Of a stretch of 64,000 nt of DNA, positions 36,779 through 46,857 are shown piece by piece. The notes below the pieces were generated by a model that saw nothing but the letters and a program-made list of their open reading frames with translations, was not told where the DNA came from and did no database searches. Within the stretch, counting starts at the first letter, position 1; each line of letters starts with the position of its first letter. This DNA comes from Chondrosia reniformis (lineage: Eukaryota > Porifera > Demospongiae > Chondrillida > Chondrillidae): positions 186,001 to 250,000 of the forward strand of contig OX359193.1 of the NCBI GenBank assembly GCA_947172415.1, given 5' to 3'. The position numbers and the translations under genes were made by a program.

Positions 36779-37222
36779 TTATTTCGCCCGCATCATTGTC
36801 ATGAACTCTGAATAGTTCACCTGACCGTCCCCATCAGTATCCGCCTCTCGTATCATCTCTTCTATTTCGGACTCAGTCAACTTTTCTCCCAAACTCTTCA
36901 TGACTGACTTTAGTTCAGATGAAGTGATGTAACCATCTCCGTCTTTGTCAAATACTTTAAATGCTTCTTTGATTTCGTCGTCCGTATCACTCGATTTCAT
37001 CTTTCTCCTCATCATAGTTAGAAATTCCTCAAAGTCGATCTTACCGTTACCATCGCAGTCAACTTCATTGATCATGTCCTGAAGTTCGCGTTCCGTTGGC
37101 TGCTGCCCTAGCGATCGCATGACTGTGCCTAACTCATTAATCGTGATAGAACCGTCTCCGTCCTTATCAAATAGACCAAATGCCTCCTTGAACTCAGCTA
37201 TCTGTTCATCGGTTAGATCCAT
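36779..37222 (-). CDS. CALM: Calmodulin, intronless
   Basis: 147 residues from [19 protein letters not shown] to MTMMRAK in one exon. Four canonical EF-hand loops are present: [36 protein letters not shown] and [12 protein letters not shown]. The central helix is [17 protein letters not shown]. Vertebrate calmodulin is 149 residues and about 90 per cent alike, with differences such as Asp-Cys in loop two and Ser-Ser in loop three. Calmodulin is the main calcium sensor, activating kinases, phosphatases and channels. An in-frame ATG at 37300 would add 26 residues; I prefer 37222 from family length. All neighbours have introns, so this may be a retrocopy or a calmodulin-like paralogue. Confidence 0.93.
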
Positions 37223-37950
37223 TACAGCGATCTGTATATTTTCTCTTACTGGACTCTTCCTCAAAGTTACGAATCTCGACAATATGAATTTGTGTTGCAT
37301 TCATATCGCGTCACAAAGGATGCGGTAATTTTCATGCCTCACATGCCATTTTCATCATATCATTGCCAGGCAGCTCTCTCGGCACGCGCGTGTGCACAGA
37401 GCTCAGGGGACTTGCAACACAGAGTATTGGGGTTGAATGCATTATATCTTGTGACTAAAGTATAGTGCAAGTTAATGGAGTGGAACTGCTAGTATTAGCT
37501 GCAAATCAATGCACGGATCTCAGGTTCCACTCCAATGGCAATACAATAATTAGTAATTAATACTTAACTTAAATCACAAGTTAATTGCTCGGCTATTAGG
37601 TATTAGCTGCAAAAGAAATCCTACCAGCAGTGTTTTGCAACTGATCTTTTTCATTTCATACAACTTAAAAATTTTAATTGAAATATATATATTTTAAGCA
37701 CTCGAGAGTTATACAGGTGCATATCATTAAGTGCTTGGACTGCATTATCATTTAAGGCCATATAAAATAGTTCCCGTTTCGGGATTTCGCAGGAAACCTA
37801 CACCGGAAGTTGACTTATAGGTGGGGTTGCACAATTATGATGCAACCGTGCAACCATTATACCCTAGAGAGTATCTATATAGTGCAACCACTTATTAGTG
37901 CACACAGAAGGTCAAGGTGACGCTAACATAGAAGTCATCTTTTTTGGTTG
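37223..37950. other. Long divergent spacer, calmodulin / SPFH gene
   Basis: 728 bp, the longest gene-free divergent region here. It is AT-rich with TATATATATTTT near 37685 and a stretch TATAAAATAG near 37761. It may include an unseen 5' non-coding exon of calmodulin. No ORF, tRNA or repeat family member is recognised. Confidence 0.5.
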
Positions 37951-42092: not shown

Positions 42093-45000
42093 TTAATTAT
42101 TTAGATAGGGTGAAAATATAGTTACTGATGCTATATATCCATTCTCCATTACCTGTTAGCAGTTATGTGGGAGAGAGAGAAAGGAGACGTAATAATGGGG
42201 AGTAGTAGTATAGGATACACGAGAATTGAAATGTATCGGACATATATATGGAGGATTGAGGTGTATAATATTTTACAACAGGATATGTATATACCTCAAA
42301 GATGAGGTTCCCACTTCCAAAGCATTGTGAAGATCCAAATGGATTGACCACATTAGTTGAAGGATTACGTTTGAGGTAGTACGGTTCTTCCTCAGTCTGA
42401 CCCAAATGCAACTCGCTCCACTGAATCATACAAGATATTGGAAATAGAGATGATAGTACATTGTGTAGTTTAGTTGTTAAAACATTTATAAATACAAACA
42501 TACCTTGGTGGAAGGAGTTAGCCGAATTGTTTTATCATCTTCATCTCTCAAAGTTATCACAAAATCACATCTGTGATACCTGAACATGAACAAGAAAGAG
42601 CAACAGCTATGATAGCAAGATCTATCCAAGAGAAGATGAGCCTCACATTCCAAAGTTGTAATGACCAGGGTAGTTTGTGTGTAGTACAAACTTCTTGGCG
42701 CAGTGAGTCACGGCATCAAACAAAACATCCTATAAAATAAAGGGACCTCAAAACCCTTCCTTTCTAAGTCATCTGTATCCTCTCCCTCTCCCTCTCCCTC
42801 TCCAACTTCCTCTTACTCTCCCTCTTCTTCATCCTTCCCTCTCTCAAAAATACCTACCATTCCAAGAGTAAAATAGTTGAAAAAGTAGTCTGAATGCTGC
42901 GACACAAGCTTTTTGTGTTTGTCCTTCAGGTGTATTCTCATCTACAAGACATAGACATGTACAGTGTGAATGTCACTCAGAACAGAATACTCTGACACAC
43001 TGCCACGTGTACCTTGTCAACATCTTTATAAAACACTTTTGCTGGCGCTCCCAAGGAAGACAATACATCTTGAACGCTCCCACCGAAACACAATACCACT
43101 TCCTTGTGAACCATCCTATCTGAAGCACCTCTTCTCTGACCAACTACATACAGCAACAGATCCCCAGTACCCCCCACACAGGGACCAATCAGATCCCCAG
43201 TACCCCCCACACAGGGACCAATCAGATCCCCAGTACCCCCCACACAGGGACCAATCAGACCCCCAGTACCCCCCACACAGGGACCAATCAGATCCCCAGT
43301 ACCCCCCACACAGGGACCAATCAGATCCCCAGTACCCCCCACACAGGGACCAATCAGATCCCCAGTACCCCCCACACAGGGTACCAATCAGATCCCCAGT
43401 ACCCCCCACACAGGGTACCAATCAGATCCCCAGTACCCCCCACACAGGGTACCAATCAGATCCCCAGTACCCCCCACACAGGGACCAATCAGACCCCCAG
43501 TACCCCCACACAGGGACCAATCAGATCCCCAGTACCCCCCACACAGGGACCAATCAGACCCCCAGTACCCCCCACACAGGGACCAATCAGACCCCCAGTA
43601 CCCCCCACACAGGTACCAATCAGACCCCCAGTACCCCCCACACAGGGACCAATCAGATCCCCAGTACCCCCCACACAGGGACCAATCAGACCCTATAGAC
43701 ACTTGCCTTCACTCTTAAGCAAAACAGTCGTCTTTGTTACATAGTCACCCTCTTTCTCCACTTGAACTTGCTCAGCAAAGCAGTTACCATGGCAACATGA
43801 TGGAGGGACCTCTGGGACCTCTGCCTTTTGACAGCTTCCTCCGCAGTACAACATGACCCTCTTGAGGACGATTTTGGTCTTGTACTCCTCCTCCATGTCC
43901 CCTGTGATCTGTGGAGGAAGAGACATGGCCGCTGACTGAGGAGTGGGCACTGGCATCGAGAAGGCAAACGTAATGCCAGGCCAGCTCAGCAACAGAAATT
44001 TCTGCTTTGAATCTAAAACTATATAGAAACATGAATTAGGGTGGATTATACAGTAGATGCTACCACTCAGCCTCATCAACCTGATGATATATGTAATAAC
44101 TGCTAAATTAAAACATTAACAACACATTGTGCCTTATTCTAGCTCTTTGATATGGAAATTCATTACCTGGCTTTTTATAGACTGCACCAAAGGTAGATTC
44201 TATTGCTGAATAAGTAGTTGGCACATCAGGAAAGCTGAACTCGCTGTTAAAGTATTTTAGTATTATTCTTCTCAAGTCGTACACCATAATCAGCTACAGC
44301 AAATATACAGATGAAGACGTACCCTTGACACGACTGCCAGAGCAGGTCAGGCGTGCCACCTACACTTAGTTACAGATGCAAGCACATTATTTAGATTTAC
44401 CTAACACTGACCATTCCGTCTTGTGTGCTTCCGATATGTTTGTACGAATTTGCTATCGATCAACTAATATTATACATGTGAATCGTTAGCTTATAAAAGT
44501 AGGCGTGGCATCCCTAAACGCCTTCGAATTCGTTCATATGACCTTTGCAATGTTGCTACAGACTACGTTTCTCCTCGCGCTAGTATTGTCGGCTACGGCA
44601 CTGGAAGTTCGATCCATCGATGACTACGGCGCAGTAGCCAACGATTCTTCAGTGAGTGCTTCGTTTAAAAATAGCGCTGCAATTGTCAAGGCCCTTCAAG
44701 CTGCCGCTAAAGGCGATGCCGTCCTGGTACCTCCGTACAAGAAGTATTTTATCTATCCAGCCATGGCCAGCGGACTTAGAGGCATACAGCTGTGGATTGA
44801 AGGTGAATTAATCGCCCAGTCAAATATATCTGCCTGGCCAAACGACGGGAAGTCCTACTACCATCTGTTATACCTCCAGGATTGCAGGGATATCATTATA
44901 ACGGGAAAGACGACTGGACGAATCGACGGACAGGGCTTCAAGTGGTGGGTCGAACTCATGTTTAATCTACTGCCGTACTCGCGACCAAAGATGTTAGTAA

Positions 45001-46296
45001 TGGAGAACTGTATAGACGTTCTAATTGAAAACATAAGTGCGTCGAATTCCCCCAGTTTCCATATGGACCTCAGAAACATGACAAACCTCATTGTGAGGAA
45101 CGTCCATATTTGGGTAAACGTGACAGCTCAGAAGGCGCTCACAAAGACAAAGCTGAATCCATGGGGTATTCCCATGTTCCCCTTCAACACTGACGGTATA
45201 GACCCTTCGGGAAGAAACATACTCATTCAAAACATCACCGTGGAGAACTATGACGATGCTGTAGCGGTAAAACCCATGCAGTTGCTGAATGGAGGATGCA
45301 CAGAGAATATAACGGTAGAAAATTCGCGGGTGGTCATCGGTGTTGGGATGAGTATCGGTTCTGTTCCACCAAATTCTAATATTAACTGCATCAGAAATGT
45401 CACATTCCGAAATATTGATTTTGAATATCCAATTAAAGCAATTTATGTAAAAACAAACTCTGGTAAAAATGGCCACGGAATTATTGACAATATTCTCTAT
45501 GAGAACATAAGGATCCGTTCTCCTGTGCTATGGGCTGTATACATTGGCCCCCAGCAGCAGTACGAGCCCAATGGTGGAGGGGACGGACTGTGGCCCCCTC
45601 CCCAACCACTAGTCAATGTGACCCGCATCACTCTGAGGAACGTGACGTCGGAGAAGGGGTGGCTGAACGCTGGAGTACTGAGATGTGCTGCGTCAAATCC
45701 ATGCAAGGAGTTTGTGTTTGATAGTGTGCAGGTGAAGGGATGGCTGGCCGGCTTCTACATCTGTGAGAACATCCAAGGACTATCCAACCACTCTGACCCC
45801 CAGCCCATGGCCAACTGTAAGAAACCGGATGAGGTTCCCTTCAATTATCTCCTATCTCATGTGCACTTCCCTTAACTGATAGTATGGCGGACAAACACTT
45901 GTATATTATCTTAGAGAGTACTGAGTTTCACTGTTAATCAAGCTATGGTTATTTGCTGTATAATATATACTAATGTATTTCTACTGTCGTATCAGTATTC
46001 AACTCACCTTTAGTCGTTGCGTAACTGAGTCGAATTTAAGAGATATTCCGTGTTCAGCGAGGTCTATATCTATGTCGTCATCAAGTGGATACTTTTTGTT
46101 GAAGGCAATAGCGATATCTCTAGAGAACTTCTCCTTCAGGAGGTTCAGTGCCAGGGGGAGAGGCATTCCTGGAAGAACGCAAACGAGAACATGACAGATT
46201 TGCTTTAAATGGTTGCTAGGATATTCTACAACCTAAAGCAAACTCCCAAGAACCGCTACTGACAGACTTCTGAGGATTTACGTCTAGCTCCAACAT
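42093..46296 (-). CDS. PHAF1: PHAF1 (C16orf70/UPF0183) homologue
   Basis: 399-residue model. Exons in transcript order: 46296-46233, 46168-46008, 44293-44167, 44018-43703, 43115-43013, 42941-42858, 42729-42647, 42579-42504, 42420-42295, 42152-42093. The N-terminus [20 protein letters not shown] aligns with human MLDLEVVPERSLGNEQWEF. Other matching blocks are [83 protein letters not shown] and [23 protein letters not shown]1 forms a complex with BCAS3 on phagophores through phosphoinositides during autophagy. Intron 2 (44294-46007) contains a complete gene on the opposite strand; intron 4 contains a 33-bp minisatellite. Human length is 422. Confidence 0.92.
43166..43690. repeat. 33-bp minisatellite in PHAF1 intron 4
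   Basis: About 16 units of a 33-bp repeat (core CCCCCACACAGGGACCAATC) with small variants such as GGTACC or a C deletion. The array runs from about 50 bp upstream of the acceptor of exon 5 (minus strand, near 43116) to about 12 bp from the donor of exon 4 (43702), so it nearly fills the intron. Confidence 0.92.
44492..44498 (+). promoter_or_regulatory. Candidate TATA box of the nested GH28 gene
   Basis: TATAAAA lies 40 bp before the ATG at 44538, a suitable distance for a transcript with a very short leader. It is the best TATA-like element in the window. Position and sequence are seen; function is inferred. Confidence 0.5.
44538..45875 (+). CDS. Secreted GH28 (polygalacturonase-like) protein, intronless, nested in PHAF1
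   Basis: 445 residues in one exon. ATG 44538 is followed by a signal peptide ([19 protein letters not shown]). The mature part is a right-handed beta-helix of glycoside hydrolase family 28: it opens [12 protein letters not shown], as pectinases do, and carries repeated turns such as [19 protein letters not shown]28 motifs are partly changed. NTDG is intact (Asp219), and the DD pair is present (YDDAVAV, Asp239-Asp240). The GHG motif is GVG, so the histidine is Val269. The RIK motif is YVK (Tyr303-Lys305). GH28 enzymes hydrolyse galacturonan or related acidic polysaccharides; here activity may differ or be lost. Several N-glycosylation sequons are present. It is intronless, has its own TATA-like box, and lies antisense in PHAF1 intron 2. 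GH28 is rare in animals, so horizontal origin is a candidate explanation. Confidence 0.85.
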   Translation: MTFAMLLQTTFLLALVLSATALEVRSIDDYGAVANDSSVSASFKNSAAIVKALQAAAKGDAVLVPPYKKYFIYPAMASGLRGIQLWIEGELIAQSNISAWPNDGKSYYHLLYLQDCRDIIITGKTTGRIDGQGFKWWVELMFNLLPYSRPKMLVMENCIDVLIENISASNSPSFHMDLRNMTNLIVRNVHIWVNVTAQKALTKTKLNPWGIPMFPFNTDGIDPSGRNILIQNITVENYDDAVAVKPMQLLNGGCTENITVENSRVVIGVGMSIGSVPPNSNINCIRNVTFRNIDFEYPIKAIYVKTNSGKNGHGIIDNILYENIRIRSPVLWAVYIGPQQQYEPNGGGDGLWPPPQPLVNVTRITLRNVTSEKGWLNAGVLRCAASNPCKEFVFDSVQVKGWLAGFYICENIQGLSNHSDPQPMANCKKPDEVPFNYLLSHVHFP

Positions 46297-46488: not shown

Positions 46489-46797
46489 CTACTGTTCGTA
46501 TTTGTCTTTAATATGCTTCCATAGTTTCTACAGAATGAAATAAAAACAATACACTATTCCAAAGAAACATACAATTCAAATGAGTGAGGCAGTTTTTGAC
46601 TACATAGCTTAGATATAGTCTATGATTTAATACAAAACTTCAGTGGAGATACTCACTCCCTGGTTCATCCTGTCCCATAGCTTTTCGGTGCCTTCGTCAA
46701 AAATTCTTTCAAACACTATTGCTCCTACAATAATTGTAGCAGCAAAGGTCGAGGTTCTTCTGAATAAAGCCCCATACAATGTTCTAGCGAGCCCCAT
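46489..46797 (-). CDS. UQCR10: Cytochrome b-c1 complex subunit 9
   Basis: 59 residues from two exons, 46797-46657 and 46527-46489. The sequence LYGALFRRTSTFAATIIVGA, then VFERIFDEGTEKLWDRMNQG and KLWKHIKDKYEQ, is a very close match to human UQCR10 (63 residues). It has one membrane helix and no cleavable presequence. UQCR10 is a small supernumerary subunit of respiratory complex III in the inner mitochondrial membrane and contacts cytochrome c1. It is head-to-head with TIMM22, another inner-membrane protein, with 60 bp between start codons. Confidence 0.95.
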
Positions 46798-46857
46798 TTT
46801 ATGTCACGTGCACAACTACTAATATTGCGCAATTCTAAAATTAATTTGCTGTGTGCA
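46798..46857. promoter_or_regulatory. Bidirectional promoter of UQCR10 and TIMM22
   Basis: 60 bp between the ATG of UQCR10 and the preferred ATG of TIMM22. It contains GTCACGTGCAC, with an E-box-like CACGTG, and AATATTGCGCAATTC, with the palindrome ATTGCGCAAT (C/EBP- or NRF-1-like GCGCA). These are visible motifs; binding is inference. An in-frame ATG at 46801 is only 3 bp from the UQCR10 ATG and is unlikely to be used. Confidence 0.55.

Follow-up and report, generated by a model that had tools for sequence, protein, structure and literature searches.

The genome of the sponge Chondrosia reniformis carries an intact GH28 (polygalacturonase-like) gene, whose single exon lies in antisense orientation within a predicted intron of the PHAF1 gene. 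In the reading that we favour, and hold with middling confidence, its product would be a resident, secreted, probably N-glycosylated hydrolase of acidic polysaccharides, with eukaryotic-like features, whose gene is old in the PHAF1 intron.

The window analysed (a stretch of 64,000 nucleotides) matches C. reniformis chromosome 5, and the whole locus sits on a single scaffold of the curated, chromosome-level assembly. The ORF (positions 44538–45875, plus strand) comprises 445 codons and a stop in one exon, with no internal stop. Its residues 82–413 match the Pfam profile PF00295 (E 1.5e-37, scoring 129.9 bits where the cut-off is 22.9), and its membership in GH28 is far beyond chance. This confirms the identity proposed in the first-pass annotation, whose NTDG and YDDA landmarks are found at residues 217–220 and 238–241. 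The ORF is the sole GH28 match found in the assembly, and a search of it with the related PF12708 profile found nothing. Judged by eye on the translation, residues 1–21 (44538–44600, plus strand) form a likely signal peptide with Ala at −1 and −3. The protein includes 11 sequons, a number reached by 0 of 2000 shuffles, at a density of 2.6 per 100 compared to up to 3.4 per 100 in bacterial sequences. Bacterial contamination as the source of the ORF is excluded by the PHAF1 exons which flank it on both sides within the chromosome scaffold.

PHAF1 is encoded on the minus strand. The coding part of exon 1 (46233–46296) was read from the sequence, while exon 2 (46008–46168) and exon 3 (44167–44293) are defined by PF03676 matches together with sequence reading. 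The match over exon 2 (45945–46169, profile 8–82) overruns the exon and hence contains two stops, and that over exon 3 (44168–44302, profile 61–103) scores 24.6 bits, alone below the 27-bit cut-off. The next exon match (43714–44019, profile 105–206) is followed by four more collinear PF03676 matches on the same side of the GH28 ORF. As read from the sequence, exon 2 ends in CGACTAAAG/GTGAGT and exon 3 starts at TGCTGTAG/CTGATT (slashes mark the junctions). These delimit intron 2 (44294–46007), a GT..AG intron of 1714 nt, of which 1338 nt are the GH28 ORF. The ORF lies wholly within a predicted PHAF1 intron whose junctions were read from the sequence; the antisense nesting first annotated is borne out, with PHAF1 exons on either side in a single scaffold.

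The first-pass annotation also attributed to the gene its own TATA-like box. A TATAAA is indeed present at 44492–44497 (plus strand), approximately 45 nt 5′ of the ATG, as a candidate element, but finding one such hexamer within 244 bases is unremarkable, with 0.1–0.2 expected by estimate. Neither AATAAA nor ATTAAA occurs in the 132 nt between the GH28 stop and the intron end. Two perfect inverted pairs bracket the ORF, one of 11 nt (44295–44305/45950–45960) and one of 10 nt (44467–44476/45957–45966), and are taken for chance. A sigma-70 promoter scan was set aside as irrelevant to a sponge.

Active-site residues were counted over 113 aligned prokaryotic or phage-labelled sequences among the matches listed. 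Some of these homologues were picked by a DD-motif pattern, and the sample is biased in this respect; 25 of the 113 were found without the pattern, though some genes came by both routes. Motif I (NTD, residues 217–219, 45186–45194) and motif II (DD, residues 239–240, in YDDA, 45252–45257) are both intact on the plus strand, Asp219 being shared by 112/113 and the DD pair by 113/113 of the listed matches. Motif III reads GVG rather than GHG: Val269 (45342–45344, plus strand) occupies a position which is His in 112 of the listed matches and Arg in one, and His in 24/25 of those found without the pattern. Motif IV reads YVK rather than RIK, with Tyr303 (45444–45446, plus strand) at a position where the listed matches carry Arg (103), Tyr (9) or Gln (1), followed by a conserved Lys305 (45450–45452, plus strand; 113/113 among the matches listed). 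The protein thus retains Asp219, Asp239, Asp240 and Lys305, and has neither the GHG nor the RIK that define polygalacturonases. The first-pass annotation makes no mention of these changes, which affect two of the four signature motifs of GH28. Since the motif-III His and motif-IV Arg are both replaced, the substrate is probably other than plain polygalacturonan, somewhat as for rhamnogalacturonan-type GH28. Rhamnogalacturonase A (1rmg), an enzyme of that type, gives a weak match (residues 218–325, E 0.025), and our tree includes no rhamno-type sequence.

Near the C-terminus, Cys383 and Cys389 form a CX5C pair (45684–45704, plus strand). The pair occurs in 0/113 prokaryotic or phage-labelled sequences among the matches listed, and in 0/25 of those found without the DD-motif pattern, while CX5C is present in both plant chains. 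The plant polygalacturonases (8ikx/7b7a and ADPG2, 7b8b) share with the sponge protein NTD, DD, the C-terminal CX5C and a Pro before its second Cys, but have GHG and RIK and less sequence ahead of NTDG. Fungal endopolygalacturonases (1czf, 1nhc, 6kvh) also carry a C-terminal Cys pair and, later, CEN or CKN (CENIQ in the sponge), but the Cys spacing is one residue shorter (CX4C), GHG and RIK are intact and overall similarity is low. Bacterial GH28 proteins such as L104 and L016–L019 give the top pairwise scores and share the NTDGIDPSG and GMSIG wording, but have no C-terminal Cys pair and keep the His and Arg.

The first-pass annotation had proposed acquisition by transfer followed by insertion into the PHAF1 intron. 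The GH28 identity, the single exon and the antisense nesting are upheld, and transfer with insertion is one candidate origin, with which the single exon and the one GH28 match found in the genome are consistent. Its recent form, however, is not supported: codon use is native, no close prokaryotic relative was found, nesting within the nearest bacterial clade is rejected and the branch leading to the sponge protein is long (see below), and we regard it as very improbable. The codon use score of the gene (mean log relative frequency, −1.19) falls within the native range, since eight window ORFs span −1.11 to −1.25 and all 13 reference ORFs, each omitted in turn, span −1.11 to −1.33, so that the comparison with its neighbours gives no sign of recent arrival; GC3 (0.533) is slightly over that of the eight window ORFs (0.391–0.532). 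No prokaryotic relative exceeds 31.5% identity by blastp, the highest identity in any search being 38% on a 216-residue piece. No close relative was found across eight prokaryotic sets, which overlap and add up to 1976 genome searches, or in plasmid and phage collections; single-protein scans of genome-contig and viral-contig collections returned no relative, and two sponge-type DNA motifs had 0 and 0 matches in viral contigs. Protist GH28-like proteins with a particular 12-letter wording provide a vague lead only. The gene could also be a retrocopy of an intron-bearing parent that was later lost, in agreement with its lack of introns and its antisense position inside one. Against this quite improbable origin, no second GH28 was found in the assembly, no A-tract is seen by eye, and a repeat search of the intron found short repeats only, with no direct repeat of at least 10 nt bracketing the ORF. 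Such retrocopy marks (A-tract, repeats) can be erased by age.

An ancient transfer from an unsampled bacterial lineage, followed by fast evolution in the sponge and convergence of the eukaryote-like cysteines, is favoured by pairwise similarity: the top prokaryotic blastp match, the bacterial L104, scores 142 bits (30% identity over 402 residues), while the best plant chain scores 62.9 bits by phmmer, a different program. The shared NTDGIDPSG and GMSIG wording points in the same direction, and in a different sponge glycosyl hydrolases are reported to belong to the genes likely transferred from prokaryotes (PMC4784904). For phylogeny, an 80% identity filter reduced 110 blast matches to 77. An unrooted tree of 53 sequences was then built from 45 of these (the best 34 and each fourth of the remainder), 1bhe, the sponge protein and six eukaryotic chains; the six chains and 1bhe, some of them partial segments, were the only representatives of their groups. 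The sponge protein attaches between 46 bacterial or phage-labelled sequences (100/98) and the six plant/fungal chains (99/92), each group forming one side of a branch that leaves the sponge out. It is thus not nested within the bacterial sequences, nor placed firmly on the eukaryotic side; with four long sequences removed, 43 still form a side without the sponge (99/98). Midpoint rooting places it beside all bacteria, and its nearest sequences by path length are bacterial. No other end branch is as long as that of the sponge protein (3.12, followed by 1bhe, 2.73, and 4c2l, 2.66), so this position may be artificial. AU tests reject its placement within the nearest bacterial clade, a clade selected once the tree was known (p 0.0039; p 0.0124 without the four long sequences), and with 1bhe (p 0.0048), while placement with plants (p 0.075) or fungi (p 0.077) is not rejected. 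Given this rejection and the absence of the cysteine pair from the listed matches, an ancient bacterial origin seems to us unlikely. A further and likewise unlikely alternative concerns function rather than origin: with both the motif-III His, to which a catalytic role is attributed in polygalacturonases (PMC6102391, PMC9146145), and the motif-IV Arg replaced, the protein may be catalytically dead and retained as a secreted binding or structural protein. The three catalytic Asp and Lys305 are nevertheless kept, and rhamno-type GH28 proteins, reported to lack motif III, are still classed as enzymes (PMC6102391).

In the reading that we favour, that of a resident sponge hydrolase, the gene would be of old origin, through transfer from another eukaryote or through vertical descent with loss elsewhere, rather than a recent bacterial gift. 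It would be long settled on the strand opposite PHAF1, in its intron, with its own transcription. The product, a putative beta-helix protein which is probably N-glycosylated and whose C-terminal cysteines appear nearer to those of plant and fungal GH28 than to the sampled bacterial ones, would enter the secretory pathway and might hydrolyse uronate-bearing acidic polysaccharides from algal or microbial food or from mucus, by a GH28-type mechanism via Asp219, Asp239 and Asp240. More speculatively, an early-branching animal may have retained a eukaryotic, non-bacterial GH28 lineage and reworked it into a secreted uronan hydrolase for algal and microbial acidic polysaccharides, with a Val/Tyr active site in place of His/Arg, encoded by an independent gene inside PHAF1.

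The literature consulted treats animal GH28 proteins as transferred enzymes for plant digestion, chiefly of insects. Those of beetles, stick insects and the black fungus gnat also reside in animal genomes, but are described as horizontally acquired, microbially derived pectinases of mostly herbivorous species, while neither feeding on plants nor a close donor is known for the sponge. The transcriptome of a cnidarian holobiont is described as including a polygalacturonase homologue (PMC6025448), and titles and abstracts of the open literature, among the matches listed, mention no GH28 gene from the genome of a sponge. The nesting in PHAF1 provides a clean marker, since the age of the gene would follow from finding it at this site in further sponges. 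A GH28 protein in a filter feeder, with two signature residues replaced, would broaden where and how this family acts, and offers a chance to test the family without its usual His.

The single-exon ORF at 44538–45875 (+) has a single Pfam match, to GH28 (E 1.5e-37), and within its assembly it is the sole match found either with the GH28 family or with its own protein, in a search of six frames, exon by exon, returning the best candidates only. This assembly includes 15 contigs and 117,379,552 bases, the window being positions 186001–250000 of contig 5 (8,804,818 bases); odChoReni1.1 is described as 117.37 Mb in 14 chromosomes, with a chromosome 5 of 8.8 Mb and a mitochondrion of 17.45 kb (PMC12181767). 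On the minus strand, collinear matches to the PHAF1 profile (PF03676) flank the gene on both sides, that of exon 3 lying below the cut-off when taken alone, and the junctions of exons 2 and 3 have GT and AG ends. PHAF1 intron 2 (46007–44294; 1714 nt) is made up of 244 nt 5′ of the ATG, the 1338 nt GH28 gene and 132 nt past the stop. The gene is therefore wholly intronic and antisense to PHAF1, as the first-pass annotation had proposed. A TATAAA precedes the ATG by about 45 nt, and neither AATAAA nor ATTAAA occurs between the stop and the end of the intron.

Several other features were also observed. A 33-bp minisatellite (43157–43690; 16 copies, 97% matches) lies between two later PHAF1 exon matches and, being open in several frames, generates a false ORF at 42970–43698. 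Two further strong matches to the PHAF1 profile (191–389) occur on contig 4 of the same assembly, at 252203–252793 (−) and 6052662–6053258 (+), in long open frames (714 and 988 codons, respectively), in addition to the window's own PHAF1, which has introns. A QCR9/UQCR10-like coding stretch (46630–46803, −) precedes the PHAF1 start by about 330 nt, on the same strand. A calmodulin-like ORF with four EF-hands in one open frame (36779–37300, −) is possibly another intronless gene.

Codon use was scored as mean log relative codon frequency against 3,632 codons of the C. reniformis genome, from 13 ORFs each left out in turn: eight in the window and five long open frames from its flanks and two other stretches, two of which resemble transposon genes by eye. 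The sponge GH28 scores −1.19, compared to −1.108 to −1.334 for all 13 and −1.108 to −1.246 for the eight window ORFs, and is thus within the native range, although the test is blunt. Synonymous codons chosen at random score −1.22, and codons drawn from the reference score −1.14. Its GC3 is 0.533, against 0.391–0.532 for the window ORFs.

Residues 1–21 of the protein look, by eye, like a signal peptide. There are eight cysteines, and the mature part carries 11 N-glycosylation sequons, a number reached by none of 2000 shuffles. We place little weight on this count since it is inflated by N-[IV]-T-rich beta-helix repeats, and some bacterial sequences have a higher density (as much as 3.4 per 100, compared to 2.6 here).

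Published GH28 motifs are SPNTDG, GDDC, CGPGHGISIGSLG and RIK; the aspartates of motifs I and II and the histidine of motif III are catalytic, motif IV is thought to bind substrate carboxylates (PMC6102391; similar roles in PMC9146145), and rhamno-type enzymes are without motif III (PMC6102391). When aligned with 113 distinct prokaryotic or phage-labelled sequences, the sponge protein retains Asp219 (112/113), Asp239 and Asp240 (both 113/113) and Lys305 (113/113). In contrast, position 269 is Val instead of His (112/113; Arg in one, the prokaryotic GH28 L120), and position 303 is Tyr where 103 of the 113 have Arg, nine Tyr and one Gln. Two flavobacterial members, L093 and L095, share this Tyr but keep the motif III His. 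Because the catalytic aspartates are retained, we infer that the protein would hydrolyse an acidic polysaccharide, and because His and Arg are lost, its substrate is probably other than plain polygalacturonan. That it has lost catalysis is a serious rival explanation.

Beyond the gene's own assembly, relatives were sought in prokaryotes, viruses, plasmids, phages and PDB chains. Six weak plasmid and four phage matches were all below 30% identity, alignment-based scans gave 24–31% for the best 80 loci of species genomes and three matches in viral contigs, and matched pieces in the prokaryote protein searches never exceeded 38%. These searches matched 19 of 20 genomes picked for having one (E limit 1e-8), 2/229 and 7/217 (1e-12), and 2/343, 10/337, 7/291, 4/345 and 7/194 (1e-15), the set of 194 overlapping that of 337. 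The best prokaryotic match, L104, gave 142 bits and 30% over 402 residues by blastp (35% in the search tool's own figure); the best PDB chains are plant GH28 (phmmer E 2.3e-16). The sponge protein has a C-terminal cysteine pair, and none of the 113 prokaryotic or phage-labelled sequences has Cys at either of its positions, 383 or 389. At the site of this sponge pair, the two plant chains have ACSDSLPC and NCSKNYPC, and fungal endopolygalacturonases have LCGSGSC or LCGDGSC and, after that, CEN or CKN. The two cysteines of the fungal pair are one residue closer together, and only the second is in register in the automatic alignment; the xylogalacturonan hydrolase segment stops short of this region and is uninformative there.

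In an unrooted tree of 53 sequences, one branch (100/98) separates 46 bacterial or phage-labelled members, including the PDB chain 1bhe, from the rest, and another (99/92) does so for the six chains from plants and fungi. Neither group includes the sponge GH28, which thus attaches between them. Midpoint rooting, used for drawing only, places it beside bacteria, and its nearest sequences by path are bacterial. AU tests rejected holding it with the six nearest bacterial sequences (p 0.0039, a clade picked once the tree was seen) or with 1bhe (p 0.0048) and did not reject plants (p 0.075) or fungi (p 0.077). With four long sequences removed, 43 bacterial sequences again exclude it (99/98; nearest-clade placement p 0.0124). 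Its end branch is the longest in both trees (3.12 and 3.35), so long-branch pull is possible.

We take the sponge GH28 to be an old, secreted protein whose active site has changed and which is closer in type to eukaryotic than to bacterial GH28; this leaning is due to the cysteine pair and exclusion from the sampled bacteria, with no firm grouping with plants or fungi. It may have entered by eukaryote-to-sponge transfer, by an old bacterial transfer whose source lineage is unsampled, or by descent with loss in most animals. The earlier proposal of acquisition by transfer followed by insertion into the intron is supported in part, but not in a recent form. For another sponge, Amphimedon, the likely prokaryotic transfers listed include glycosyl hydrolases, and in one transferred group of peptidases most genes now have host traits such as introns (PMC4784904); the main text of that paper contains neither "pectin" nor "polygalacturonase", and that of PMC12198962 neither "sponge" nor "Porifera". 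The sponge GH28 is not a new kind of system but a real oddity, and one with a clear test.
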